Shown: positions 10,765 through 45,947 of the stretch, one piece after another | How positions within the stretch are numbered: the first letter of the stretch is position 1 | Layout of the letters: each line of letters starts with the position of its first letter | IMG/VR virus record: IMGVR_UViG_3300025000_000148 | Location: 1 to 50,309 of that record | From: a virus | Length of the DNA stretch: 50,309 nt | Strand: one strand, 5' to 3' | Translations under genes and position numbers: made by a program | The notes under the pieces: generated by a model | Told to the model about the DNA's origin: nothing | Seen by the model: the letters and a program-made list of their open reading frames with translations, nothing else | The model's database searches: none

Positions 10765-12258
10765 CTACCCTTGCGCTCTCGGACTGTAGCCCCAGCTCCC
10801 CGCCCGCAATGGCAGGCGCGCCAGCGCGATCTCGAGCGAGTCCGGCGAGGTATCGAGCGATAGAGCCGCCTCGCCTTGGCTGAGCGAGTATCCGATCAGC
10901 CTAGGTGTGGTGCGCTTCGCCAACCCGTCGACGGCCACGAGCTCGCCGCACAAGAGGTGCTCGAGCGGTACGCGGGTATTGGTCTCGTAGTCGCGCACCC
11001 ACCGGACCGGGATGGTGCCGGACTGGCGCCCGTAGGCGCGCTCGGCAAGTGCGATCGTGCCGAGACGCGTCGCTACCGTTGTAGACGACGTGTCGGCGCT
11101 GATCTCGATCCACTGCTCCTGGCCGATGGTGGTGAGATAGCTCGCTGCCGCGGCCACGGTGAGCGTCCTGGGGGCTCCTGATTCGTCGCGGTAGCGCACC
11201 AGCGCGTGGGTGGCGGCGTCCGATATCGACACGGTGCCGAAGTCATCCGCTCCGGTCTCGGAGACATCGATGCGGTACTTGGGCGTGGACGGGAGCGCAT
11301 CGAAGACCCCGGCCATCCTCTGCCGCTTGCCGTATGCAGCCCTGCGATATGACCAACGGCTGGCCTGGTAGCGCAGAAGCTGCTCGAACCATGCGCCCAT
11401 GTCGCCGGCCGGAAGGATGAGGGGCTCGATCACGTCCCCGATATCCGCTATCTGGACCCCGTCCGTGACCGCGTGGGTGGGTGCCTCGTCGAGGATGGCA
11501 CCGATCACGTTGGCCGGACTGATGTCTGTCACCCCGTCCACACCGTAGACCTTGATCTGCACGCGTACGATACGGTCGCGTGTCCCCGCATCTCCCGAGT
11601 ACCGCGCCTGGACGCTGATAACGTCGTGGGACTCGTCGATCTGCTTGGTGTAGGTTCCGCTCAGAGCGCCCGAGCCGTCTGCTGCAATGACCTCCGAATA
11701 CGCCCATGCCCCGCCCGCCTCGTGGCCCGTGGCCTCCACCAGGTCGTAGGTGTCCCAGTAGAGCGTGATCCGCTCGTCTGTCGTTGGCCGGGCCCACGCT
11801 ATCACGACGTAGCTCTTTCCCGCCGCTTCCTTGCGGTAGTACACGCCGTTGGTGTCACCGACCGCTGCGGTCCCGCGACCGATGAACCGGATGTATGGCC
11901 CGTCTGCCTGTATGCGCCAGAACTCCGTGGCCCTGCCGGTGTTGGTCAGCTCGTGCCAGGCACTCGTGGATGTGTCGCAAAGACGCATCTCGCTTCGCAG
12001 CACGGTCGCGAACGGGCGCTGCAATCCATCGGCGCGGATCTCATCGCGGGAAGCATCGACCACGAACCCGTCCCAGGCGATGCCCCACGGCCCGTACCCC
12101 TCCAGTCTTCCGCCGGGAGCGACGAGCTTGTCCACTTCCGCGATGCGCCCCGGTACCTCGGCGAAGGAAGGGCCGCCGAAGACATGCCAGGCGAACGTGG
12201 CGTCCGAGACATCGATCAGGCGCGCGCCGCCGCTGGTGGGCTTGAGGACCCCGATCAT
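10765..12258 (-). CDS. Minor tail protein, probable tail-tip or host-contact
   Basis: 497 residues; the ATG overlaps the preceding stop (ATGA). It begins MIGVLKPTSGGARLIDVSDATFAWHVFGG and is rich in strands throughout. A DRIVRVQIKVYGVDGVTDISP segment and a C-terminal part with RNTRVP-like loops resemble minor tail proteins of siphoviruses. It is the last tail gene before the lysis block and follows the distal-tail-like gene, the usual place of a tail-associated receptor-binding or baseplate protein. No enzymatic motif found. Confidence 0.65.
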   Translation of the reverse strand: MIGVLKPTSGGARLIDVSDATFAWHVFGGPSFAEVPGRIAEVDKLVAPGGRLEGYGPWGIAWDGFVVDASRDEIRADGLQRPFATVLRSEMRLCDTSTSAWHELTNTGRATEFWRIQADGPYIRFIGRGTAAVGDTNGVYYRKEAAGKSYVVIAWARPTTDERITLYWDTYDLVEATGHEAGGAWAYSEVIAADGSGALSGTYTKQIDESHDVISVQARYSGDAGTRDRIVRVQIKVYGVDGVTDISPANVIGAILDEAPTHAVTDGVQIADIGDVIEPLILPAGDMGAWFEQLLRYQASRWSYRRAAYGKRQRMAGVFDALPSTPKYRIDVSETGADDFGTVSISDAATHALVRYRDESGAPRTLTVAAAASYLTTIGQEQWIEISADTSSTTVATRLGTIALAERAYGRQSGTIPVRWVRDYETNTRVPLEHLLCGELVAVDGLAKRTTPRLIGYSLSQGEAALSLDTSPDSLEIALARLPLRAGSWGYSPRAQG

Positions 12259-14084
12259 GACGGCTCCGGGAGGATACCCCTCAAGTCGAGGTAGACCTCG
12301 TTCCAGCGGACGCGGAACAACCCGCCGCCGGGGGCTGCGTCGCCCGGTGTCTCGGCATCCACGAGAACCGCGCAGTCCCCGGGCCATAGTCTCGGCCAGC
12401 CATTGAGGGGAAGTGCGCTCGTGAGCACGGAGGGGTCGACTCCCTCGTCGGTGCCGTCGTTGGCATACGCGTAGATGTCGCGCTCCTGCACGGGTCCGGG
12501 GGTGAAGTCGGCCAGGAACCCCGCATCCCCCGCGCCGGTGTCACGCTCCACGATCATCGCGCCGCCCTTGGTGGGGAGGATCGCGACGTAATCGAGGTAG
12601 CCGTACTTGTTCGACTCCGCGCTAGAGGCGAGGATCTGCATCTTGGCACTTGAGTCGAACGGGACCCGCCCATACACCGCAAAGCGCACGTCGTAATCCG
12701 TGTCCATCGTCAGGGTCGCCCCTGCTGATCTTGACGAGCAGGCACCGAACGACCCGCCCGAGTACGCGCTAGGCGTAACCAGGCGCAGGTTCACGATCGG
12801 CTGCGGCCCAGAGTAGTACCCGATGAACGGCAGGAGCGCGTAGGTCACTCCCGCCTCCAATGTCGGCGAGTACAGCGAGACGAAGTCGACATTGGTATTC
12901 GTCACGTCAGCCTCTGGGTAGACCTGCGCGGAATCCACCACCGTGTCCAGCTTCCCGCCTACGACTTTCCACACCACGAGCGAGAGCAGAAGGTTCGTTG
13001 CCCCGTTGAGGGCGATGTCGAGATAGAGCGGGTAGTTCGTGGCCCGGAAAGATGCCTCAGGGGTGAAGGTCTGCACCTTGTACGGGTAAGGGACTTCGTC
13101 CAGCAGGTCGGTTTGAGCCGTCCCCGTCGCCTGCGATATCTGCGCGATGTCCGGCCCGTAGCCGCTTCCCCCGGTGAGTTTCGGCACGTTGCCCGCAGGA
13201 ATCCTCAAGGGCCGCTCCGAGAACACCACAGAGCGCCAGGCGGCCGCCTCCGATATGACCGGCTCGGAATCCACCGACGCGGTCCCTCCGAGCCCGGAGC
13301 CGGTGATCAGCGAGCGGGCCTTGGCGGTCATGCCCGTAGCCGCGACAGCGGTGTGCTTCATGCGCGCGATCGCCACGAAGTCCCCGCGATGGACGTTGGG
13401 GTCCAGCGCGTCGGCGGTGCCGATCAGCGCAGGGGTTGAGGTCATCGTGATCCGCGCGGCCGCCCCTCCGAGCGCCGTGGCATCCGCGACCCCGCTGTAG
13501 TCTTGGGTCAGAGCCAGTCCCGTCGTCGCGTCGGGAAACACGCCGAGCGCCATCATGGTCGTTTGCTGGGTGGCCACTACCGCCCACTCGGTACGTGCGG
13601 CCTTGTCCCCACCGATGGTGGGAGGGGTGAGCACTGCGGGGAACGCGGTGATCGTATCGGCGTCTTCCTTGGTGGGGATGAGCCACTCGGGGCGGCAGGT
13701 GAGCGTGAGCGTGATCGCAGCGCAGTCCTCTTCCACGACCGGCTCTGAATACACCGCATGGATGATCTCGGCCCAGGCCGAGAGTTCCCCGTTGGTGACC
13801 TTCACGATCGCGTCGCTGGCGTCCGCCGCTGTGTGGAGCAGGTCGATGTTGGGCCGCCGTACCGAGGCGGTGCCGAGCACCAGGAGCGGGAACTCATGCT
13901 CGAGCAGTTCGTGGGTGACTTCCTTGTCCCAGTCGTACTCAGTGCCCCCCGCCGCTATGTGGTCTGCGTACTCGCTTGTGGGTTCTGCCTTGCCCCACTC
14001 GGCGCCGCGGTAGAGCTCGAAGTCCGGATACGAGGTGATCTCGACCGCGACCCCGCCGCCGATGATGTGGATCTGCACGCTCAC
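12255..14084 (-). CDS. Distal tail / minor tail protein
   Basis: 609 residues from a GTG overlapping the tape measure stop (GTGA). The opening MSVQIHIIGGGVAVEITSYPDFELYRGAEWG and its position right after the tape measure fit a distal tail (Dit-like) or baseplate hub protein. The middle (about 330-480) is rich in Tyr, Val and Thr and looks like a jelly-roll carbohydrate-binding module (FTPEASFRATNYPLYLDIALNGATN...). It probably joins the tail tube to the host-contact protein. Confidence 0.65.
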   Translation of the reverse strand: MSVQIHIIGGGVAVEITSYPDFELYRGAEWGKAEPTSEYADHIAAGGTEYDWDKEVTHELLEHEFPLLVLGTASVRRPNIDLLHTAADASDAIVKVTNGELSAWAEIIHAVYSEPVVEEDCAAITLTLTCRPEWLIPTKEDADTITAFPAVLTPPTIGGDKAARTEWAVVATQQTTMMALGVFPDATTGLALTQDYSGVADATALGGAAARITMTSTPALIGTADALDPNVHRGDFVAIARMKHTAVAATGMTAKARSLITGSGLGGTASVDSEPVISEAAAWRSVVFSERPLRIPAGNVPKLTGGSGYGPDIAQISQATGTAQTDLLDEVPYPYKVQTFTPEASFRATNYPLYLDIALNGATNLLLSLVVWKVVGGKLDTVVDSAQVYPEADVTNTNVDFVSLYSPTLEAGVTYALLPFIGYYSGPQPIVNLRLVTPSAYSGGSFGACSSRSAGATLTMDTDYDVRFAVYGRVPFDSSAKMQILASSAESNKYGYLDYVAILPTKGGAMIVERDTGAGDAGFLADFTPGPVQERDIYAYANDGTDEGVDPSVLTSALPLNGWPRLWPGDCAVLVDAETPGDAAPGGGLFRVRWNEVYLDLRGILPEPS

Positions 14085-18003: not shown

Positions 18004-19002
18004 TTATGACGCTCCGAGCACGGCGTTGGTGATGACCTGCTTGGTCTCGAGCGTCGCGGTGATCGCGGCACCCGAGGTGACATCGAACTGGCCGGCGCAC
18101 TTGACGCTCTGCACGATGCGGTCACGGCCGGAGGGCTGGATACCGACCTCCGTGTAGACCATCTTGGGCAGCGCCAGATCGAGGCGGCCGATCGTGGCCC
18201 CGGAGTCCAGGGTGATGATCGCCTCCTCGTCGTAGATGGTGTCGGCGGAGGGCTCCGTGGCGTCCGTGGCGCCCCAGTACTTGCGCTTCTCGGTGAGATC
18301 GTTGAAGGCGATGGACATCGCGAGCTCCACACCGACGTCGCCCTGCCAGATCGAGCGCGGGAAACGCGAACCCATCGTGATCGATGCCTCGGCGTCCGGG
18401 TTGTTGGTGTAGGTCAGCTCGAGCTTCTCGATGTGCGCCGAGCGGTCCGCGCTCGCCAGAGACACCGACGTGTCGACGAACGTCATCGGATAGGCGTCCG
18501 AGAGCAGCAGGTCGGCCAGCGCCGTCATGCCTGCCGGGTTGATCTGGTCCTTGCCCCCGACGATGTCGAGGGTGATCATCGCGTAGCCCTTCTCGACGGT
18601 GAGCTTGAACCCGCCCACCGCCGCCCCGGGATAGACGAACTCCTCGAGGTCCTTGCCCGCGCGGAACGTCGCGGTGCGCATGAGCCGGTTGAGCGTCGGG
18701 ATCATCGAGTAGGTGTAGATGTCGCCCACCGGTCCGGTGATGACCGGATCCCCGCCGAACGCGAGGATCAGCGCGTAGCCGATCGTGTCCACGTCGGCTG
18801 CGAACTCGGCGGGTCCCTGGCTCACGTACGGGCCGGGGCGGTGGATGCGCGGGGCGCGGCCAAGCCCGCCAGGATAGGCGATGAGCGGGTTGGACGGACT
18901 GTCGATCCCGGAGCTGGCGACGTCGACGTGGATGTCGGCAGCGACCGCGGTACCCGGTGAGGTCTCGAGTCCGATTCCAAGGTAGCGCAGCACTTCGGAC
19001 AT
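18004..19002 (-). CDS. Major tail tube protein
   Basis: 332 residues after a GGGAGGAG site. It starts MSEVLRYLGIGLETSPGTAV, like many phage tail tube proteins, then has two beta-rich halves (RIHRPGPYVSQGPAEFAADVD... and GSRFPRSIWQGDVGVELAMSIAF). It stands just before the chaperone pair and after the tail completion genes. It polymerises into the hollow tail tube. It is longer than lambda V, but siphovirus tube proteins of this size are common. Confidence 0.85.
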   Translation of the reverse strand: MSEVLRYLGIGLETSPGTAVAADIHVDVASSGIDSPSNPLIAYPGGLGRAPRIHRPGPYVSQGPAEFAADVDTIGYALILAFGGDPVITGPVGDIYTYSMIPTLNRLMRTATFRAGKDLEEFVYPGAAVGGFKLTVEKGYAMITLDIVGGKDQINPAGMTALADLLLSDAYPMTFVDTSVSLASADRSAHIEKLELTYTNNPDAEASITMGSRFPRSIWQGDVGVELAMSIAFNDLTEKRKYWGATDATEPSADTIYDEEAIITLDSGATIGRLDLALPKMVYTEVGIQPSGRDRIVQSVKCAGQFDVTSGAAITATLETKQVITNAVLGAS

Positions 19003-22155: not shown

Positions 22156-22866
22156 CTACACCACCCGGCGTTCTATCGTGAACGGCCCCGTCAGTGATTC
22201 GCTCCATGCGAGGTCGATGTGGTCGGTGTCGGGAGTGGCGGTGAGAGATCCGAACCACGACGTGTCGAATGTCGAAGCGACAAACGTGCATCCTGTAGCA
22301 TTCCAGTGGATGTCGTCAGTCTCGAAGTATGAGCTGAGGGCGTCCGTGTTCCAGTCGGCATACTCATAGCCGTTGGTCGCACAGTAGGCGGCTATCCATG
22401 CGTTGAGCGCAGCCTTGTTCGCTGTCTCGGTAGCTCCGTCTGTGTTACGCGGAGGGATGGCCGTGATGATGCACTCCGCGCCGAGGGCAACGACTTTACC
22501 AGCCAGAGCCTCTATGTTCGCGGTTATCGCTGCCTGGTCGTATGAGCCGTCCATCGGGTCAGAATGACCAGGTGCGCCGAGAATCACATAGTCGCTCGAA
22601 CTCGGAACGTCAGTGTCGAACCTAGCAAGCATCTGTGCGGACGAGTTGCCACCCACGCCGAGGTTGTAGGCCGTCCAGTTCTCGCCCACGAGCGCGTTGT
22701 TGTCGGAGTAGACCGGGGCCGAGGTGGGCGGCGTCCACGGCGTAGGCGTGATAGATGTCTCGCCGAGGTTCTCAAGCAGCTTGTAGAGCCACTGTGTAGA
22801 GTCCGTGACGGAGTTCCGGTCTACCGCATCCGTCATCGAGTTTCCGATGGCTGAGATGTACCTCAT
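22156..22866 (-). CDS. SGNH/GDSL-type hydrolase
   Basis: 236 residues; ATG overlaps the previous stop. Block I is IGNSMTDA (catalytic Ser), block II Gly is in LGVGGNSS, block III is modified (LGAPGHSD in place of G-x-N-D), and block V is TDDIHWNATG with the Asp-x2-His pair. SGNH enzymes remove acyl groups from sugars or lipids. A copy among virion genes suggests de-O-acetylation of host surface polymers on contact. The C-terminal 30 residues (TATPDTDHIDLAWSESLTGPFTIERRV) resemble a short beta add-on. Changed block III leaves some doubt about activity. Confidence 0.75.
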   Translation of the reverse strand: MRYISAIGNSMTDAVDRNSVTDSTQWLYKLLENLGETSITPTPWTPPTSAPVYSDNNALVGENWTAYNLGVGGNSSAQMLARFDTDVPSSSDYVILGAPGHSDPMDGSYDQAAITANIEALAGKVVALGAECIITAIPPRNTDGATETANKAALNAWIAAYCATNGYEYADWNTDALSSYFETDDIHWNATGCTFVASTFDTSWFGSLTATPDTDHIDLAWSESLTGPFTIERRVV

Positions 22867-24658: not shown

Positions 24659-25369
24659 TTACGCCTTCTTGAGCTTCGCGATGATCTCGTCACGCTTGCG
24701 CAGGTTGCCGAGCGAGACCTCGTTGTTCTTGGCCCACTCGCGCATCTCGGCCACGGTCATGGCGTCGAAGTCCGGGGCGGTGGGCTCGCTGTCGGGCGTG
24801 TCGCCTTCCCAGGGCTCGTGACCCTCGGCTGTGACCCACAGCCCGTTCGTCTCGTCGTAGACGATCGCGGTGCCGTCTACCTCTGCGGTCGCTCCGTACT
24901 GGGGTTCGCAGGTCCGCTTGAGGTTGTCGAGCGCTTCCTTGGCCGGGCAGCCCTCGGCGTGGGTGATGCCGGAGGCGTATCCGCCGTTGTCCTCGTGCTG
25001 CCACTCGGCACCGCACTCCGAGCACGGAGGGAACACGGCTGGCTCGAGCTTCTCGACCGGCTCGACGAGCTTGACCTCGCCGGTCTCGAGGTCGGTCTCG
25101 TAGGTCTTGCCGTCGGCCGGGACAGCGATGCCTTCGCCCACGACCCCGGTACCGGGGTGCTCGCGCTCCGTCGCGTCTTCGGTGACTTCGGGCAGCGGGT
25201 CGTACGGAGACTCCAGGACCTCGACGCGAAGTCCGACGCGCGCACGGATCTCGGCGAGCTGCGCATCCGAGACCACGATCGGGTCGGATACGGCGTTCGC
25301 GCGGAACAACCGCGAGCCGCGGCTTATCGGATGGGGATTGCTGTTCGTGACGACTATCTGGTGGAGCAT
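24659..25369 (-). CDS. Probable virion protein with zinc knuckle and SAP/HeH-like C-terminus
   Basis: 236 residues after GAGGAGGGAG. Residues 1-53 (HQIVVTNSNPHPISRG... to VGLRVEVLE) form a small domain that also ends the neighbouring glycerophosphotransferase-like protein. Residues 110-145 contain CSECGAEWQH and a later H...GC, a zinc knuckle. The last 35 residues (DAMTVAEMREWAKNNEVSL...KRDEIIAKLKKA) match the short helix-extended-helix/SAP type often seen at the C-termini of phage head accessory proteins. It follows the capsid region in the late operon and is probably attached to the head. Confidence 0.6.
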   Translation of the reverse strand: MLHQIVVTNSNPHPISRGSRLFRANAVSDPIVVSDAQLAEIRARVGLRVEVLESPYDPLPEVTEDATEREHPGTGVVGEGIAVPADGKTYETDLETGEVKLVEPVEKLEPAVFPPCSECGAEWQHEDNGGYASGITHAEGCPAKEALDNLKRTCEPQYGATAEVDGTAIVYDETNGLWVTAEGHEPWEGDTPDSEPTAPDFDAMTVAEMREWAKNNEVSLGNLRKRDEIIAKLKKA

Positions 25370-25469: not shown

Positions 25470-26654
25470 CTATCCCAGGACCTCGACACGAAGGCCCGAT
25501 CGCGCTTCGACCTCCCGGAGCCCGGTCTTGGACAGCGAGCACACGACAGGGGTTCCGGGGGTGAAGATGCGGCCTGCTCTCGGGATCACCGACCCGGTGG
25601 TGTTGGTGACGCGCACCCGCACGACCCTCGACGCGGACTCAGCATCCGGCCACGCCCCGATCGCAGGCATCGGAGGGTACTCATGCGCGGGATTGTCCGC
25701 AGCCTCCACGATCGCGCGTGCGGCCCTTTGCGCCGCCTGCCCGTCGAGTCGCCCGTAACAGGCCTCCACGGCCTCTCTGCGCAGAGTCGCGCGGGCATCC
25801 GAGTCCGCCCACGCCTCCTCGAGCACTGCTGGCAGGTCTTCGGGGCGGCTCACCTGGGCCCCGGGCACATGGGACCAGAAGCGCAGCCCGTGGTCCACGT
25901 CCCTGCGGTAGTAGGGCGGGGAGAGCACGACCACGGGACGGTCGAGGGCGGCGAACTCGTAGAGGGTCGAGGAATTGTCGCACGCGAACATGTCGGCGCG
26001 CTCTATGACTTGCGCGAAGTCCTCCACCACCTCCACCCCCAAAGATGCCCACCAGCGCGCCATGTCGCGCCCGTCTGCCGGATGTGCGTGCCCGATGATG
26101 TGCCAGCGCCCCGAGGCCACCACAGCCTCCCACGCGGCCTTGTCCCACGGCCAGGCGCTACGGGTCTCCGGGTAGTTCAGCTGATCCCAGTGGTGCGAGA
26201 CCGCGACGCACGGCGGGTCGCTTGGTGTCTTGCGCGGAAGGCCAAGCAAGCTATCGAGCTTGACCGGGCCGGTGGCGACCACTCTCGCGTGCGGGTGGTC
26301 CGCCTTCATCACCGCGCCAGCGCTCGGGTTCGTGACCACCAGCACGATATCGGGCATCGGCGGGAGGTGCCCGTGGCCCTCGTAGGTCTGCCCGCAGCCG
26401 TGTTCGGCGAAGATCATCGGACGCAGCCTGCCGGGGATCCTTCGCAGCTCTGAGCGTGAGCAGAACACGATCGGCCCGAAGGGGGGGTTACGGGTCTGCA
26501 GCTCTGCTTTGATGCCGAGGGATGCGGCGTGCCTCACCAGCCCGGTATCAGCGACCTGGAAGCGCCCGCGGTAGCCTTGCGGAAGCGCGTGCCAGATCGG
26601 AGCGGTGTGGTCGACGTAGTGGCTCCTCGAGCACCAGAAGTCTACGGGTTGCAC
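25470..26654 (-). CDS. CDP-glycerol glycerophosphotransferase-like enzyme with C-terminal virion-type domain
   Basis: 394 residues from a GTG within the end of the acyltransferase gene. Residues about 75-320 follow the TagB/TagF C-terminal fold: PMIFAEHGCGQTY, VVATGPVKLDSLL, VAVSHHWDQ, HIIGHAHP, then ERADMFACDNSSTLYEFAAL and DRPVVVLSPPYY. The CDNSS-YEFA block is the nucleotide-diphosphate-binding signature of this family, which adds glycerol- or ribitol-phosphate (or a sugar) to a polymer. Residues about 345-394 repeat the N-terminal domain of the next gene's product. That suggests docking to the virion or to the same partner. No membrane segment seen. Exact donor and acceptor are unknown. 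Confidence 0.75.
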   Translation of the reverse strand: MQPVDFWCSRSHYVDHTAPIWHALPQGYRGRFQVADTGLVRHAASLGIKAELQTRNPPFGPIVFCSRSELRRIPGRLRPMIFAEHGCGQTYEGHGHLPPMPDIVLVVTNPSAGAVMKADHPHARVVATGPVKLDSLLGLPRKTPSDPPCVAVSHHWDQLNYPETRSAWPWDKAAWEAVVASGRWHIIGHAHPADGRDMARWWASLGVEVVEDFAQVIERADMFACDNSSTLYEFAALDRPVVVLSPPYYRRDVDHGLRFWSHVPGAQVSRPEDLPAVLEEAWADSDARATLRREAVEACYGRLDGQAAQRAARAIVEAADNPAHEYPPMPAIGAWPDAESASRVVRVRVTNTTGSVIPRAGRIFTPGTPVVCSLSKTGLREVEARSGLRVEVLG

Positions 26655-27019
26655 ATGCCCACCTTCTTCGCGGGGCTACCGGCCCACACCTCGCGTGAGG
26701 GCACGTCATGGGTCACGACCGCACACGCACCTATCACGGCTCCCTCGCCGATCGATGAGCATGACTCGAGGATGGTCGCGCGTGTGCCGATGAACGCGTC
26801 TCTGCCGATGACGAGCGGCGAGTAGACCATCTTGCGCTCACCCGCTTCGAAGTGATCGTGGGTCAGTATGCGCACGTCTTCGGAGATGATGACACCCGCG
26901 CCGATCGTCACGTCATCGGAGATGTCGATGTCGACCCTCGCGGCGAAGATGACAGACGGGTGTGCATGCAGGTGCCCTTTGAACTTGCGCAGGTGGCGAC
27001 GCACTACCCTGGGCTCCAT
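26642..27019 (-). CDS. Hexapeptide-repeat O-acyltransferase
   Basis: 125 residues; ATG overlaps the methyltransferase stop (TGATG). It shows left-handed beta-helix repeats (DDVTIGAGVIISEDVRI, VIGRDAFIGTRATIL, SIGEGAVIGACAVVT), the catalytic His in LTHDHF and the family end GSPAKKVG. It would transfer an acetyl (or similar) group from acyl-CoA to a sugar hydroxyl. It is short for the family but complete in its core, and is co-translated with the other cassette enzymes. Confidence 0.85.
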   Translation of the reverse strand: MEPRVVRRHLRKFKGHLHAHPSVIFAARVDIDISDDVTIGAGVIISEDVRILTHDHFEAGERKMVYSPLVIGRDAFIGTRATILESCSSIGEGAVIGACAVVTHDVPSREVWAGSPAKKVGMCNP

Positions 27020-27615
27020 CACGCCCTCACCACGAACCCGGCGAGCTGGCCGCCGGTCTCCACCGTCTCGTACGGGTAGATGCGCTCTCCAAACGTCCAC
27101 AGCTCGCCTGTGAAGACCCGCCAGTGCCGCTCTTCGACGATCGTTCCCCACGCCTCCACATCGGCGCGGTTGAACACCTGGCACACGTAGGGCGCGTTTT
27201 GCCCGTATCCCGCTTCCGGGAGCGCGTAGACGTTCTCTACGTGGCGGGTCTCGTGAAACGGCACGGTGATGATGAGGATGCCATCTGGCGCGAGCAGCCC
27301 CATCATCGCCTTGACTGCCGCCTGATGGTCCGGGATGTGCTCGAGTGTCGAGATGCACGTGATGGCGTCGTAGGGTCCGGTCAGATGCGTGTGGCAGATA
27401 TCGTCGTCGACCACATCGCAGTGGCGGTTCGCGAACGGCTTGCCGCCGTAGTAGGCGCGCTTCTCATCCGACGCAGTGACTTTCAGTCCGCTGCCCGCCA
27501 GCAGCGCCGGCCACGCGGTGCGTCCTGTGCCGACATCCAGCACGGTCCTTGGCCCCGCCTGTGCGATCGCTTCGAGGGCGAACGCCCACTCGAGCATGCG
27601 TTCGTTCAGCCGCAT
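27019..27615 (-). CDS. Class I SAM-dependent methyltransferase
   Basis: 198 residues. The SAM site is RTVLDVGTGRTAWPALL with the acidic residue after strand 2 (KVTASDEKR). Motif IV-like YDAITCISTLEHIPDH and LLAPDGILIITVPFHE complete the methyltransferase-11 pattern. The C-terminal part (VCQVFNRADVEAW, RHWRVFTGELW) resembles enzymes that act on sugars or surface polymers more than DNA methylases. The start overlaps the stop of the glycosyltransferase by ten bases. Confidence 0.85.
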   Translation of the reverse strand: MRLNERMLEWAFALEAIAQAGPRTVLDVGTGRTAWPALLAGSGLKVTASDEKRAYYGGKPFANRHCDVVDDDICHTHLTGPYDAITCISTLEHIPDHQAAVKAMMGLLAPDGILIITVPFHETRHVENVYALPEAGYGQNAPYVCQVFNRADVEAWGTIVEERHWRVFTGELWTFGERIYPYETVETGGQLAGFVVRA

Positions 27616-28535
27616 GCCGCCACCAGCCTCTCGAATGCCGGCAGGTCCTGGTCCATAACTTCGCTCCTGCGCAGTTCCTCGGTGATCTCCCATCCCTTGA
27701 GCTTGTCCAGCGTCTCGCCGAACGCCTCGAGCGACGGCGCCACAAGCCCCCATCGCCCGTCGTAGTAGGCTCCCGAGCGTCCTGTGTTGAACCCGAGCGT
27801 CGGAATGCCCGCCCCGATACCGTACTCCCACGTCTTGTTCGGCATGCACTGGCTCACGTAGCTCTGTGGCCCCCGGACGGAGTACCCCTGGAAGCCCACA
27901 GCGTACTGACTCAGCTCGCGGTAGAGCGCGGCCTGGGGCACGTGGTCGTGGATGATGCACCCGATGTCCTCGTACGCCCGGATCCTGGCGGGGTCGCGCC
28001 ACGACGGATAGACGTGGATCTCCCACCCGGCCCGCGCGATCGCGGGGAAGAGGTCGACGTTGTAGGTACGGTAGCCGATCCTGCTCGAGACGCGATGCAC
28101 GATCCCCCCGGCATAGACCACCGTGCGCGGGCGCTTCGGCAGCGGGTCGAAGCACAGGTCTTTGAGCAGCGGTCGCAGATGCACGATCTCGGTGACGTCC
28201 GGCAGCCGGTAGTGGCGCGCGAGGTACTCGTGGTGCCCCTCGGATGTGAGCAGGAGGGCGGCGGCGTTCTCGACCATCTCGCGCTCGGCATCATCCGGGC
28301 CTCCGCCGCGGCGCAACGATGCGACGTCGTTCTCGATCAGGATGTAGGGGATGCCCGCGGCCATGGCGATGCGGTGATGGGTGTGCTTGTCGCCGGTGAC
28401 TAGGATCGCGTCGTAGTCTCCTGGGTGGTTCTTCGTCTCGATCGACGTGTCCACGTCCGCGACCCGCGAGAACATCTCGACGTACTTGTAGCGCGACCCG
28501 ACCCTGCGATTCGACGTGATGTAGCCGATTCTCAC
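27606..28535 (-). CDS. GT-B-fold glycosyltransferase
   Basis: 309 residues from a GTG behind AAGGAG. The N-terminal half has RIGYITSNRR and AAALLLTSEGHHEYLARHY. The C-terminal half has RTVVYAGGIVHRVSS, WEIHVYPSWRDPARI, and CMPNKTWEYGIGAGIPTLGF, the family 4-like donor-binding region. It would transfer a nucleotide-activated sugar to a protein or polymer. It is the first gene after the capsid terminator and starts the four-gene modification cassette. Confidence 0.85.
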   Translation of the reverse strand: MRIGYITSNRRVGSRYKYVEMFSRVADVDTSIETKNHPGDYDAILVTGDKHTHHRIAMAAGIPYILIENDVASLRRGGGPDDAEREMVENAAALLLTSEGHHEYLARHYRLPDVTEIVHLRPLLKDLCFDPLPKRPRTVVYAGGIVHRVSSRIGYRTYNVDLFPAIARAGWEIHVYPSWRDPARIRAYEDIGCIIHDHVPQAALYRELSQYAVGFQGYSVRGPQSYVSQCMPNKTWEYGIGAGIPTLGFNTGRSGAYYDGRWGLVAPSLEAFGETLDKLKGWEITEELRRSEVMDQDLPAFERLVAACG

Positions 28536-28562: not shown

Positions 28563-28593
28563 AGGCGGCACCCGGGGTATCCGAGTGCCGCCT
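28563..28593 (-). terminator. Hairpin between major capsid and glycosyltransferase genes
   Basis: AGGCGGCAC and GTGCCGCCT form a perfect 9-bp stem, with inner CGG/CCG pairing possible. On the coding strand it is followed by TTTGCC. It lies 22 bases after the capsid stop. With only a short U-tract it may end just part of the transcripts, giving much capsid mRNA and less of the downstream cassette. Confidence 0.7.
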
Positions 28594-28614: not shown

Positions 28615-29613
28615 CTAGCTGGCGGCCGGATCCTCGAGGTCGAGGTACGCCACCGCGGCGCCGTTCTCATCCTCGTAGTCCGCGTCGCACTCGACGGTGA
28701 GCACCTGGTAGGTGATGCCGCCCAGAGCGTCACGCTGCGACTCGACACCGACCTCGTCGAAGACGCCCCAGACCATGTTGGTCGGGTACTGCAGCATCGC
28801 CACGCGGCCGACACCGCCGTCCGCAGCCGCCAGTGCCCGCTCGAACATCGGGACCACGACGACCGGAAAGCCCTTGTACGGGATCGGCTGGTTGCCGATC
28901 TGCGCCACGTCGCCCAGGCCGGTGTTGCGTGCCCGCAGTACATCGCGGTACGCGTTGCCGGTGGCCCAGTCGACGTAGATGCGCCACTCGGCCGGGTTGG
29001 TGAGGAACTCCTTGGGCACCGCGCCGATCAGCGCCTCGAAGACCGCCTCGGGGTCGTCGGGGTCGAAGCCCGCACCCGCACCGGTGCCGTAGACCTTGTT
29101 GGCGGCCTTGTTGAGCCAGCCATCGGTCAGGCACAGGGTATCGTCGGTCTCGACCGTGAAGAGCTCCGTGTCGGCGAACAGGCCGTACTCCTCGAAGTCG
29201 AGGCCGGCCGCGTTGCCCATCAGGTCCACGATGTGGGCCTGGAAGCCCCCGCGCTCGATGTTGCGCCGGAGCGCCTTGTCGCGCAGCGGGACGATCGCCT
29301 TGAGCTCGTTGGCGATCAGCTTGTTGGTGTTGGTCGCGGGCTTGGCGTACTCGGTCGTCGCCAGGTCACGATGAGCACCCGTGGCCGGGGTCTTCGTGCC
29401 ATGCACGATGCGGCCGGTGAAGCCCACGCGGTCGATGTTCTCCTGCTGGGAGCGCATCGGCATGTAGCGAGCCTCCTGCAGGATCGCAGTGCGGGCCTGC
29501 ATGGCCTCGACGAAGCGGTCGAGCTGGCCGGGGCTCAGGATCGACTCGCCGAGATCGTTGACCTCGATGATGCTCTTGAGCGCGGTCAGGATATCCTCGT
29601 TGCTGCGAGCCAT
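28615..29613 (-). CDS. Major capsid protein
   Basis: 332 residues after GGGAGGG. The N-terminus is helical (MARSNEDILTALKSIIEVNDLGESILSPGQLDRFVEAMQ). The main part has the alternating pattern of HK97-fold coat proteins, with VDLMGNAAGLDFEEYGLFADTELF, IGAVPKEFLTNPAEWRIYVDWATGNAYRDVLRAR and VGRVAMLQYPTNMVWGVFDEVGVESQRDAL. It directly follows the protease/scaffold gene, the standard order. It forms the icosahedral shell. Confidence 0.85.
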   Translation of the reverse strand: MARSNEDILTALKSIIEVNDLGESILSPGQLDRFVEAMQARTAILQEARYMPMRSQQENIDRVGFTGRIVHGTKTPATGAHRDLATTEYAKPATNTNKLIANELKAIVPLRDKALRRNIERGGFQAHIVDLMGNAAGLDFEEYGLFADTELFTVETDDTLCLTDGWLNKAANKVYGTGAGAGFDPDDPEAVFEALIGAVPKEFLTNPAEWRIYVDWATGNAYRDVLRARNTGLGDVAQIGNQPIPYKGFPVVVVPMFERALAAADGGVGRVAMLQYPTNMVWGVFDEVGVESQRDALGGITYQVLTVECDADYEDENGAAVAYLDLEDPAAS

Positions 29614-29615
29614 GT

Positions 29616-30005
29616 CTACCCCCTCCCCAGCGGGCGGCCGTAGCCGTCGCGGTTCTTCATGCCGGGCTCGTGCGCCGGCTGATCGTCCGAGCCATCTTCC
29701 TTGATGGCCTGGCTCGAACCCTTGGTCAGACGCTTGACCACGGACTCGATGCCTTCCTTGAGCTCGGTGATCTCAGACTTGAGACCGTCGATCTCGGTCT
29801 TGACGGCATCCGCGCCATCATCATCGTCGCCGTCGTCGCCCTCGGAACCCTTCGCGGCGTCCTCGAGCGCGCCCATGCGATCGGTGAGGGGCGTGACCGC
29901 CTCCTTGACGGCCTCGGCGATCGTCTCGCCCAGACCCGTCTGGATCTCGTCGACTGCCGTCTTGACGCTCGCAGTGACCAGCTCCTGGACCTTGTCCTCG
30001 TCCAT
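29616..30005 (-). CDS. Scaffold protein from an internal start
   Basis: 129 residues, MDEDKVQELVTASVKTAVDE..., coiled coil with an Asp-rich middle (GDDGDDDDGAD) and a charged tail that ends GYGRPLGRG. The start follows GAGGAGGGAACG, nearly the same bases as before the full-length gene. This is the arrangement of lambda C/Nu3: a large amount of free scaffold nested in the protease frame. Confidence 0.8.
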   Translation of the reverse strand: MDEDKVQELVTASVKTAVDEIQTGLGETIAEAVKEAVTPLTDRMGALEDAAKGSEGDDGDDDDGADAVKTEIDGLKSEITELKEGIESVVKRLTKGSSQAIKEDGSDDQPAHEPGMKNRDGYGRPLGRG

Positions 30006-30971
30006 CGTTCCCTCCTCGGTCTCACCCTTGAGTGCGGAACCATCATCACCAGCAATCGTAGCACGGGCGTTTTCACGCACAAGCGCCTTGAGCGCGCCGC
30101 GCATCTTGTCGGCCAACGTCTGCCGTGACTTGATCAGCACGTACTTGGCCTTGGACACCGCCGGACTCGGGACGAGCGAGATGGCCGGCACCACCCAATC
30201 ATCGCCGAGCTCGGCGAGTGTCACCACGTCGTGCGCGTGTCCTCCGACCATCACCGTGCCGCTCGACGCCTTCACGCTCGCAGCGGTGATCCCGGCGTTC
30301 TCCGGGCGGCATCCCCAGATAGAGAAGCCGGTGAACTCCCCGCTCTTGACCGATGCCCACGAGGCGTCGTTGTCGATGCGCGCGGCGAGCATCCATGTGC
30401 CGGCGGGCACCTCGAAGGCATCGGGGCCCTCGCCGAACTTGAGGTTGACCGGCGTGATGTAGCTCTCGACCGGCACTCCTGCCGCCTCGAGTGTGTGGTC
30501 GGAGTCCATGATGCGGTAGTCGGAGAGGAACTTGTGGGCGACCTCCTCGATCTTGGCGGCGCTCACCACGTCCCCGTCGGAGTCGGGTTCGTCCGGTACG
30601 AGCACTGGCCCCATCACGATGCGCTGCTCGTCGTTCTTGGCGACGATAGGAGCGGCGAGCCACAGGGGCTTTCGCGCTGACTTCATGGCGGCGACCTCCG
30701 CCTTGGCAGCGGCCTCATCGATCCCCGCGTCGACGAGAGCAGAGAGGATGTAGACCTCGTCGACCTCCTCGGGTGCTCCGAAGCGCACGACGTCCCCCTC
30801 GATCTCGTAGGGGATCCGCATGAAGGCGTTGGTATCGTAGACCTTGATGATCACCGCGTCGGTGAAGGTATGGCGCAACGATACGTCCCACCATGTCTCG
30901 CCGAGCTGATCGGCCAGTGCGCTCTCGATCCTGCGCAGCCGGTTCTCGAGTGAATCACGCGCCAGGTCCAT
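29616..30971 (-). CDS. XkdF-like prohead protease fused to scaffold
   Basis: 451 residues. After an N-terminal helix, residues about 100-300 match the XkdF-type serine protease: WLAAPIVAKNDEQRIVMGPVLVPDEPDSDGDVVS, HKFLSDYRIMDSDHTLEA (catalytic His region), SYITPVNL, GTWMLAARIDND and SGEFTGFSIWGCRPE (catalytic Ser region). Residues 323-451 are an acidic coiled-coil scaffold. An internal ATG with its own strong ribosome site makes the scaffold alone. The protease should cut scaffold and itself during head maturation, as in other such fused pairs. Confidence 0.85.
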   Translation of the reverse strand: MDLARDSLENRLRRIESALADQLGETWWDVSLRHTFTDAVIIKVYDTNAFMRIPYEIEGDVVRFGAPEEVDEVYILSALVDAGIDEAAAKAEVAAMKSARKPLWLAAPIVAKNDEQRIVMGPVLVPDEPDSDGDVVSAAKIEEVAHKFLSDYRIMDSDHTLEAAGVPVESYITPVNLKFGEGPDAFEVPAGTWMLAARIDNDASWASVKSGEFTGFSIWGCRPENAGITAASVKASSGTVMVGGHAHDVVTLAELGDDWVVPAISLVPSPAVSKAKYVLIKSRQTLADKMRGALKALVRENARATIAGDDGSALKGETEEGTMDEDKVQELVTASVKTAVDEIQTGLGETIAEAVKEAVTPLTDRMGALEDAAKGSEGDDGDDDDGADAVKTEIDGLKSEITELKEGIESVVKRLTKGSSQAIKEDGSDDQPAHEPGMKNRDGYGRPLGRG

Positions 30972-43755: not shown

Positions 43756-44030
43756 CTCACTCCCACCCTCCCGTGCTTGTTGCGCTTACGGTTGGTGCTG
43801 CCGCCCATCCCGCCGGCGGGTTGCCCGCCTATCCACGGCCCTGGCTGGTTCCGAAGCGACCGCGCCACCGCCTTGAGCATCCGGCGCTCTTTGCGCTCCC
43901 AGTCACGCGAGATGCGAATGCTCGCGGCTAGTCTGGCGACTGGGGCGAGTGCGGCGGCCATGCTGCGACAGAAGCGCTTGACGGCTTCGCCCGCCTTCTC
44001 CATCGAAGCGATCATCTGCTCGTAGCTCAT
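43752..44030 (-). CDS. Basic helical protein
   Basis: 92 residues. The ATG overlapping the DUF5131 stop is preferred because GGGGGAGG lies nine bases before it; an in-frame ATG three codons earlier is possible. MSYEQMIASMEKAGEAVKRFCRSM, a hydrophobic-basic helix and a Gly/Asn/Lys-rich tail (GGSTNRKRNKHGRVGVR). Similar charge to small nucleic-acid binding proteins. Confidence 0.6.
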   Translation of the reverse strand: MSYEQMIASMEKAGEAVKRFCRSMAAALAPVARLAASIRISRDWERKERRMLKAVARSLRNQPGPWIGGQPAGGMGGSTNRKRNKHGRVGVR

Positions 44031-45184
44031 GAGCCCCATCCTCCCCCGGCCACCGGGCGGTCGCGGTGCTCGACGCCGTCGAGTAGGTGTCCCGCTGCCT
44101 TCTTGCCTACGCAGCGCACCAAGACGGCCGTATCATCCGGCGTCCCCGTGTAGTTGGACCACCTGTACTCCTCGTCGCTTTCGACGGCGCACGTGCCCGG
44201 CTCGCCATTCGTGCAGATGTAGTGGTCCCACGGACCGCTCTCGTCGATCGTCCCATTCGACTCCTTGAAGTAAGGGTCGAAGTCATCCCACGTCCAAGCG
44301 CCTCTCTGCTTGAACATGAACGGCACGCCCGCAGCCGCGCACTGATCACGAACGGAGCGTGCCCACTCTGGGTGTATCGGTCTTGCGTTCGGGCCTGACT
44401 CGCCGCCCACGATCACCCAGTCAAGGGTCTTGGCTTGGCCGTGCCACTGCCCTGGGATCCCGTAGCGTCCCGTCAACACGTCCAGCGTCCAGGGGCCCGT
44501 GCCGTGCCCAGGCGGGTTGTACGTCAGCCCCATCAGGTCCACCGGTGCCAGTAGCGGTTCCATGGACACGAACCGGACGGCCGCCGGCGTCTGAAGCAGG
44601 ATCGGAATACGCTTGTCCGCCTGCTCCTGATTCTCTGCCGTCACACCGAGCCACACGTTCGGCAGAGGGCGGTTGTAGTTCGTCGTGGCGACGTGACCGT
44701 GGAGCGCGTTGACCGCGGTCAGGTGGCGCTGCCAGCCCTCATCGGTATGCGCCGCGAGGAAGTACTCGCGCATCGCCTGGGCTCGCTTGGTGAGGAACAC
44801 GAACGTGTGCTGCGGGCAGACTGTGGCCAGCGCCATGAGTTGGTCGATGTGGCCGTCAGGCACCTGCTCGTGGAACGTGTCGGCCAGGAAGTTCACGCCG
44901 ATCACTCTGCCCCGGCGCTTGCGTCTGACCGCCTCGATGCGCTTCTCGGCGTCTGGGTGGACAGCCACCATCCCGCTCCACTCGTATGGCCCGTGCTCAT
45001 TCCAGTAGGTGTCGTGACTGATCGCCGCGCATTGGAGCTCTGCGACCTCATGCCTCGAGATGAACGACAGTCGGCGTGTGGTCCTGATCGCGTAACAGTG
45101 GTTACACGCGGGAGAGACCTTAGAGCAACCGATCAGGGTGTTGAGCGTGTCGTCCAGGTAGTCGATTCGCGTGTTGTCGCTCAC
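44027..45184 (-). CDS. DUF5131 (phage Gp37/Gp68) protein, radical-SAM-like
   Basis: 385 residues from a GTG overlapping the ASCH stop. It starts SDNTRIDYLDDTLNTLIGCSKVSPACNHCYAIRTTRR, with C-x6-C-x2-C as in the Gp37/Gp68 family, which is thought to be related to radical-SAM enzymes. Further family blocks: GRVIGVNFLADTFHEQVP, HTFVFLTKRA, NVWLGVTAENQEQADKRIPILLQTPA, RFVSMEPLLAPV, WVIVGGESGPNARPIHPEWARSVRDQC and VPFMFKQRGAW. Length is usual. Its reaction is not established; DNA or RNA modification has been suggested for phage members. Confidence 0.92.
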   Translation of the reverse strand: MSDNTRIDYLDDTLNTLIGCSKVSPACNHCYAIRTTRRLSFISRHEVAELQCAAISHDTYWNEHGPYEWSGMVAVHPDAEKRIEAVRRKRRGRVIGVNFLADTFHEQVPDGHIDQLMALATVCPQHTFVFLTKRAQAMREYFLAAHTDEGWQRHLTAVNALHGHVATTNYNRPLPNVWLGVTAENQEQADKRIPILLQTPAAVRFVSMEPLLAPVDLMGLTYNPPGHGTGPWTLDVLTGRYGIPGQWHGQAKTLDWVIVGGESGPNARPIHPEWARSVRDQCAAAGVPFMFKQRGAWTWDDFDPYFKESNGTIDESGPWDHYICTNGEPGTCAVESDEEYRWSNYTGTPDDTAVLVRCVGKKAAGHLLDGVEHRDRPVAGGGWGS

Positions 45185-45726
45185 TCCACACCCCCCAGCG
45201 CATCGACATCGATCATCCCGCGCATAGCCGCCTCGAGTCGGCAGTCCAGCCGCCACAGCCTCTGGGCACCCGCGCACACGATCGGCTCTGCGAGCAGCGT
45301 CACGTTCACGATCTCGAAGCCGAACCGCCCGCGGTGGAAGTCCCCGAGTCGTACCTCGATCTGGTCGCGCTCGAGCATGCTTCCCTCTTCTGAGCGCGCG
45401 AACATCTCCTCGACGATGTCCTCGGTCTTGACGCAGCGCTTCATCCACCCGACCCCGACGATCGCCCCGAGCGGAAGGCCCGCAAGCTCTCCTCGCGGGT
45501 ACTTGTCCGGTGCGAACCCGTGCCGCTCGAGCAGGTCGCAGAAGCCGGAGCGCTCGGCGATCATCTGGACCTCCTTGCGGAAGTCCCGCCCCGCGTGTAT
45601 CGCGATGGGCCCGGTGTAGCGGGTGGCCCACGGGCGGGTCTCGAATCGCTTCTCGCCTGTCGCGAGCAATGTGGCCCACGGCTGCCATATCGTGATGGCC
45701 CTGATCGCGTCTTGGATGTCTGTCAC
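45181..45726 (-). CDS. ASCH-domain protein
   Basis: 181 residues. The start is the GTG placed five bases after AAGGAGG; the in-frame upstream ATG would read through that ribosome site and is rejected. RAITIWQPWATLLATGEKRFETRPWATRYTGPIAIHAG is the ASCH signature. ASCH domains bind RNA or modified nucleotides. It overlaps the DUF5131 gene by four bases, so the two are probably made together and may serve the same modification pathway. Confidence 0.88.
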   Translation of the reverse strand: MTDIQDAIRAITIWQPWATLLATGEKRFETRPWATRYTGPIAIHAGRDFRKEVQMIAERSGFCDLLERHGFAPDKYPRGELAGLPLGAIVGVGWMKRCVKTEDIVEEMFARSEEGSMLERDQIEVRLGDFHRGRFGFEIVNVTLLAEPIVCAGAQRLWRLDCRLEAAMRGMIDVDALGGVE

Positions 45727-45737
45727 GCTGTCCTCCT

Positions 45738-45947
45738 TCATTGCGGTCCTTGCAGCCGGCGCGCGAGCAGCGCCAGTGCCTCTCCGATGCCGTCCTTGTC
45801 CTCATGCTTGACCTTGCTCCACCGCAGCGCTAGATCGTCCGCCGCGTCGATCACGTCGCTTCGCCATGCTGCGATGAAGTCCACGGCCTCAGTCCTCTGG
45901 TCGCTGTCCCCGGCCAGTATCGCGCCGACCGCCTCATCGAACCCCAT
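45738..45947 (-). CDS. Small helical protein
   Basis: 69 residues, MGFDEAVGAILAGDSDQRTEAVDFIAAWRSD..., all helical and acidic. It overlaps the previous gene by 14 bases. No motif. Confidence 0.55.
   Translation of the reverse strand: MGFDEAVGAILAGDSDQRTEAVDFIAAWRSDVIDAADDLALRWSKVKHEDKDGIGEALALLARRLQGPQ

Follow-up and report, generated by a model that had tools for sequence, protein, structure and literature searches.

The IMG/VR virus record IMGVR_UViG_3300025000_000148, a stretch of 50,309 bp with 65% GC from an uncultivated microbial virus, whose full length we call the window, carries a cassette of four sugar-enzyme genes in its head operon. These encode a GT-B-like glycosyltransferase (GT), a methyltransferase (MT) dependent on S-adenosylmethionine (SAM), a hexapeptide acyltransferase, and a TagF-like enzyme (GPT). 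A preliminary description of this DNA had reported four overlapping genes directly downstream of the major capsid protein (MCP) gene and a hairpin, and this arrangement was confirmed by the coordinates of the open reading frames (ORFs), by matches to Pfam and PHROG profiles, and by folding (Table 1). The four genes lie on the minus strand and overlap successively by about 10, 1, and 13 nt. A longer ORF for the GT, reaching position 28571, would overlap the hairpin, and the Pfam match of the GT was weak (Glyco_trans_4_4, E = 0.005, below the cut-off). Because portions of the cassette recur as exact copies in two more IMG/VR fragments from another dataset, one with the GPT gene (L002) and one with the MCP and GT genes (L004; L-numbers are our locus labels for related viral sequences), the cassette is not an assembly accident.

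The preliminary description overlooked that the C-terminus of the GPT is a separate domain, which is common to the product of the next gene. We named this domain of ~50 amino acids, with the pattern V-x-N...R-x-G...F...L, VTN and searched for it with a profile hidden Markov model (VTN-HMM). The VTN domain of the GPT was 41% identical to the N-terminus of the next gene's product (pairwise E = 4e-7; VTN-HMM independent E = 2.4e-16), and a profile search found one VTN copy directly after the MCP gene in nearly all of about 50 MCP relatives. Against Pfam, no family matched the domain, and a short invented VTN-like query had no match among phages. Residues 1-52 of the free VTN protein were modeled by AlphaFold2 (AF2) with a predicted local distance difference test (pLDDT) score of ~97, and the best PDB match by both fold and profile was 2out, on evidence that was modest in each case and mutually consistent (Foldseek probability 0.91 but E = 0.1; E = 8e-4 for the profile from alignment A4 and 0.2 for a domain-only profile). 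Many of the post-MCP VTN proteins that make up alignment A4 also carry a C2H2-like zinc finger, and others have SAP/Rho_N-like ends; both resemble nucleic-acid-binding domains.

Table 1. Positions of the cassette and of other head and tail features in the window.
Feature	Positions	Strand	Match (E-value) or sequence signal
GT-B-like glycosyltransferase (GT)	27606-28535	-	GTG start at 28535, AAGGAG upstream
SAM-dependent methyltransferase (MT)	27019-27615	-	Methyltransf_23 (8.6e-15)
Hexapeptide (left-handed beta-helix) acyltransferase	26642-27019	-	Hexapep (1.7e-9)
GPT: TagF-like GT-B transferase (residues ~1-340) with C-terminal VTN domain (residues ~344-394)	25470-26654	-	PF04464 (4.3e-9)
XkdF-type head maturation protease, upstream of MCP	29616-30971	-	Peptidase_S78_2 (6e-27)
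XkdG-type MCP, ends -DPAAS; predicted acceptor C-terminal Ser332	28615-29613	-	phrog_1623 (3.9e-65)
Hairpin between MCP and cassette	28564-28592	-	perfect GGCGGCAC/GTGCCGCC arms, then TTTGCC
Free VTN-domain protein, C-terminal SAP/Rho_N-like region	24659-25369	-	VTN-HMM (2e-12)
SGNH/GDSL hydrolase, MCP-to-connector slot	22156-22866	-	Lipase_GDSL_2 (5e-11)
Tail tube protein, ends -LGAS; predicted second acceptor C-terminal Ser332	18004-19002	-	Phage_tube_2 (6e-11)

VTN fusions between the capsid and connector genes

In relatives with 37-54% identical MCPs, the default gene order was MCP, VTN protein, and connector, and all complete sugar cassettes detected in this MCP-to-connector slot included a VTN-fused enzyme. 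Seven architectures were observed: GPT-VTN (window), FkbM-MT/GT-A/GPT-VTN (L006), GT-A/GPT-VTN-SAP (L027), GT-A-VTN-zinc finger (L016), VTN-GT-B/TOD1-type GT (L007), GT-VTN (L020, L074, and L076), and GT-B/GT-A-like-VTN (L083, L088, and L090). Companion genes in the slot encode a TupA-type ATP-grasp enzyme, a UDP-sugar dehydrogenase, an epimerase, LicD, and a TagD-like cytidylyltransferase. The other relatives of the window GT, which were found by the GT alone without a VTN or MCP reference, were likewise all VTN-fused (L020, the same as L077/L078; L074/L075; and L076), and the L020 enzyme was 38% identical to the window GT. Because the same-locus arrangement recurs with different enzymes in many phages, it is unlikely that the cassette genes are silent recent passengers, an outcome that the preliminary description had allowed for.

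A tree of VTN, a short domain, was poorly resolved; the fused copies required 5 changes on it, at least 2 of them forced. Since the fused and free VTN copies of L007 are sisters, fusion arose more than once. L016 and L027 have no VTN protein other than the fusion, and in both an in-frame ATG with AAGGAGG or GGGAG lies exactly at the start of VTN (L016:11685, L027:6949). Because of this Shine-Dalgarno-like sequence and ATG, it is possible that one gene in each of these phages yields two products, one fused and one free.

Assignment of hosts through the genome bins of MCP relatives, which named Bacteroidota, Thermoplasmatota, Sumerlaeota, Chloroflexota, PVC, and Balneolota, was rejected. Binning was unreliable as host evidence because the near-identical viral contigs L116 and L117 were assigned to separate bins, one a Thermoplasmata and the other a Sumerlaeota metagenome-assembled genome, a case of mis-binning in public genomes.

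C-terminal serine of capsid and tail tube proteins

A comparison of cassette presence with capsid sequence in related phages, which the preliminary description had proposed, revealed an association. The MCP ended in Ser in 11 of 11 cassette-bearing relatives and in 3 of 33 relatives lacking a cassette (Fisher test, 4.7e-8). The tail tube gene is unlinked to the cassette, yet its product followed the same trend, with a C-terminal Ser or Thr in 9/9 versus 4/22 phages (Fisher test, 3.5e-5), and the MCP and tube signatures occurred together in all 8 cassette-bearing phages compared and in none of the 22 others (Fisher test, 1.7e-7). As controls, the connector (1/10 versus 3/28) and the free VTN protein (0/8) had no such bias.

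Many relatives of the GPT are encoded close to, or immediately behind, MCP genes of different families (phrog_10, phrog_1328, and protease-MCP fusions). Retrieval by GPT similarity alone yielded 16 distinct phages with a recognizable complete MCP, a set in which the window, L006, and L027 are counted again, and the MCP ended in Ser in 15 of them (-GGS, -GSGS, -EGS, -AGS, -TGS, -GAS, -EPS, -LTS, and others). Most of these tails had been seen before PHROGs confirmed the MCPs; two phages found by profile only (L063 and L067) agreed. Two tail tubes identified by homology in this set end in -GSGS and -AAS. For comparison, among 80 phrog_10 MCP loci picked by MCP similarity alone, Ser ends were present in 4 of 62 distinct tails, and one of these four (L196/L197, MCP ending -FQAS) has a GT2 gene directly after the MCP. 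Because a Ser tail and a GT2 gene surfaced together in this control set, they probably represent another glycosylation cassette. A further comparison was a natural, near-isogenic pair of phages with 90% identical MCPs: the one with a GPT (L049) has an additional AAGSGS at its end, and the one without (L124) stops at LTP.

Several observations weigh against reading the signature as a mark of modification. The Ser pattern was first noticed in four phages that were kept in the counts, and the association is therefore partly post hoc. The cassette label, taken as a group, requires 6 changes on the MCP tree, at least 4 of them forced by well supported branches, and the tree offers only 5 independent pairs (90% in the same direction), too few for a sign test; because the phages are related, the Fisher values overstate the case. 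The three cassette-lacking MCPs that end in Ser also count on this side, as does one phage (L065) that has a GPT and an MCP ending in -GSGSGF. Most GPT relatives in other phages lack VTN, which shows that the domain is not needed for the chemistry. Lastly, the window GT and GPT had no similarity to the GTs of the mycobacteriophages Che8 (gp110) and Corndog (gp38) by tblastn (E 1e-5).

The post hoc element and the small number of independent contrasts would fit an explanation in which the Ser signature arises as a side effect of shared ancestry or of some structural role. The actual target of the cassette would then be DNA, which phage GTs can also modify (as cited in PMC12619734), or a different head protein, for instance the VTN protein. 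We regard this explanation as unlikely. The signature turns up repeatedly, across four HK97-type MCP groups, in the tail tube, whose gene is unlinked, in L049 as compared with L124, and in phages reported to be glycosylated, and the connector and VTN proteins are without it.

Predicted decoration of the virion

We consider it likely, from these sequence comparisons, that the cassette modifies the virion and that its targets are the C-termini of the MCP and the tail tube protein. Virion decoration had been one of two roles suggested in the preliminary description, and the finding that cassettes track these C-termini supports it and narrows it to the predicted serine acceptors. Late in infection, the enzymes would build a small substituted glycan on the C-terminal Ser of both proteins, with glycosyl, methyl, acyl, and perhaps polyol-phosphate groups. 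A VTN-bearing or stand-alone GPT or GT would start the chain on the terminal Ser, and the GT, MT, and acyltransferase would then extend and cap it. VTN, as a copy of a small head-gene domain normally encoded after the MCP, would presumably bring the GPT or other fused enzyme to the assembling head; for such docking we see about even chances.

The features of the GPT bear on both the acceptor and the chemistry. The GPT matched PF04464 with 36.2 bits (cut-off 22.1) at profile positions 233-366 of 367 only, and its AF2 model (pLDDT 81) matched GT-B folds in Foldseek, TagF among them. Residues H85 (in EHGxG) and H189 and H191 (in GHxHP) were invariant in 24 sequences and are candidate counterparts of the TagF histidines. 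The GPT resembles TagF/TarL (PDB 3l7i-3l7m and 8va1; Cps3D, 8qoy) in its above-threshold PF04464 match and its modeled GT-B fold. It differs from them in that its alignment with the Pfam model is confined to the C-terminal half, its fold fits UDP-GlcNAc 2-epimerases equally well or better, it has no membrane region, and it is set among capsid genes. Because of this genomic context, the GPT acceptor is probably a protein, and the presence of the GPT as the sole obvious sugar enzyme beside Ser-tailed MCPs in three phages (L049, L058, and L062) suggests that it can act on protein directly. In the slots of two relatives, a TagD-like cytidylyltransferase gene and a LicD-family gene adjoin the capsid gene (L083:2346-3381, L090:9890-10943), which hints at a CDP-polyol or phosphocholine-type virion chemistry there; no TagD-like gene is present within the window cassette.

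The second suggested role was late remodeling of host polymer to limit re-adsorption. In the wider form considered here, the target would be a polymer of the host surface (wall teichoic acid or capsule), changed either late or during lysogeny, and superinfection might be what is blocked. The enzyme families do resemble those of wall and capsule synthesis (PF04464/TagF and the hexapeptide transferase in the window; TagD-like, LicD, and TupA proteins in relatives). However, many phages carry such genes in the head operon downstream of the MCP, one enzyme shares its polypeptide with a head-gene domain, the cassette products have no membrane-spanning stretch (maximum 19-residue hydropathy of 1.7), and the MCP and tube C-termini covary with the cassette. 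Host-polymer remodeling thus gained no support from our analysis, and we judge it to be improbable.

A further explanation places the VTN-fused enzymes in the virion itself, as decoration-protein fusions on display at the head that act on, or just bind, host glycans at adsorption. This would fit L016 and L027, where the sole VTN protein is the fusion and a free form could be produced beside the fused one, and also the fibre-like fn3 gene and GDSL hydrolase in the same slot. Activated donor sugars, however, are unavailable outside the cell, the enzymes of Corndog-type cassettes were detected inside infected cells and not attributed to virions (PMC4351075), and display leaves the C-terminal Ser of the MCP and tube unexplained. 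It therefore seems to us a poor candidate, and we retain modification of the virion by the cassette as the preferred explanation.

Extending this explanation beyond the window, we tentatively suggest, as a less probable proposition, that many tailed-phage lineages share a swappable capsid-glycosylation slot. Captured sugar enzymes would be docked on the growing head by a duplicated head-gene domain and would add glycans, possibly teichoic-acid-like polyol phosphates, to the capsid and tail tube at a C-terminal Ser tag that is recognizable from sequence. If the Ser tag together with a head-linked sugar gene marks virion glycosylation, then this modification is predictable from sequence, and it would occur in unrelated types of capsid across diverse metagenomes. 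The 2023 study by Freeman and colleagues reportedly considered virion glycosylation of tailed phages to be rare outside mycobacteriophages. The VTN fusions also suggest a way for enzymes to reach their substrate in a crowded cell and provide a testable handle on the role of the HI1506/gp35/YqbF head-gene family.

Other features of the window touch on the cassette or its products. The hairpin 3′ of the MCP gene (-26.9 kcal/mol for a 36-nt piece folded by itself) may lower expression of the cassette relative to the MCP. Downstream of the cassette lie the HI1506-like gene, fibre-like genes (one with fn3), the GDSL hydrolase, the connector, the tail tube, and the tape measure. The GDSL hydrolase possibly belongs to the sugar module; an SGNH/GDSL hydrolase is also encoded in the L016 cassette in the same slot (L016:12818-13477), and such slot hydrolases possibly trim or deacylate the glycan or attack host glycans. 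A tail protein encoded at 12255-14084 likewise ends in Ser (-PEPS) and is a possible third acceptor. Elsewhere in the window, a DUF5131 protein (44027-45805) has an N-terminal extension of ~210 residues, and its profile match spans 374 residues for 243 positions, which suggests an inserted stretch.

Comparison with known head genes and glycosylated phages

The literature searched yielded no mention of VTN fusions, the GPT family, or the C-terminal Ser rule. By profile and fold, VTN matches HI1506/HI1507 (FluMu gp35; PDB 2out), which together with YqbF (PDB 2hjq) we take to be two-domain prophage proteins adjoining the capsid gene in Mu-like and PBSX/skin-like elements. The window differs from these in that VTN also serves as a fusion module on sugar enzymes. 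A literature search on the function of the FluMu, HI1507, and YqbF proteins returned nothing useful.

In a tblastn search of 50,697 phage records, including Che8 and Corndog-cluster phages, the window GT had no match and the GPT matched only Virus Rctr41k, from a methane-oxidizing enrichment. The GPT relative in this virus (gene 32 of KX853513; 34% identity) lies among head genes, as in the window, and the Rctr41k MCP and tail tube also end in Ser (-AEGS and -LPGS). Unlike the window enzyme, this GPT is stand-alone without VTN, and the capsid is of the protease-MCP fusion type.

A further comparison is with the Che8 and Corndog types of mycobacteriophage. Mycobacteriophage capsid and tail tube proteins are reported to carry C-terminal glycans (Freeman et al. 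2023, pmid 37329881, as cited in PMC12619734 and PMC12363180), and Corndog-type phages, here represented by Firecracker and Dylan, encode an O-methyltransferase and GTs between the portal and protease genes (PMC4351075). Such decoration of C-termini is not known to have been described outside mycobacteriophages. The window differs from these phages in its acyltransferase, its TagF-like enzyme, and the fusion of an enzyme to a head-gene domain; it has no link to mycobacteria, and its cassette follows the MCP gene, whereas the Corndog-type cassette precedes it. In both cases, however, the phage encodes GTs and a methyltransferase, and in Corndog-type phages, as in the window, the cassette lies within the structural or head operon, where it would be expressed together with the virion genes. 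The C-termini are also alike: the MCP and tube end in -KTGS and -SDGS in Che8, in -PDGS and -SDGS in Squirty (F-cluster, like Che8), and in -LVGS and -KGDS in Firecracker and Dylan, in contrast to -VTP and -IKA in Juicer and -VTP and -AAA in NoShow. As in the Che8 and Corndog types, both proteins of the window end in Ser after small residues (-DPAAS and -LGAS).

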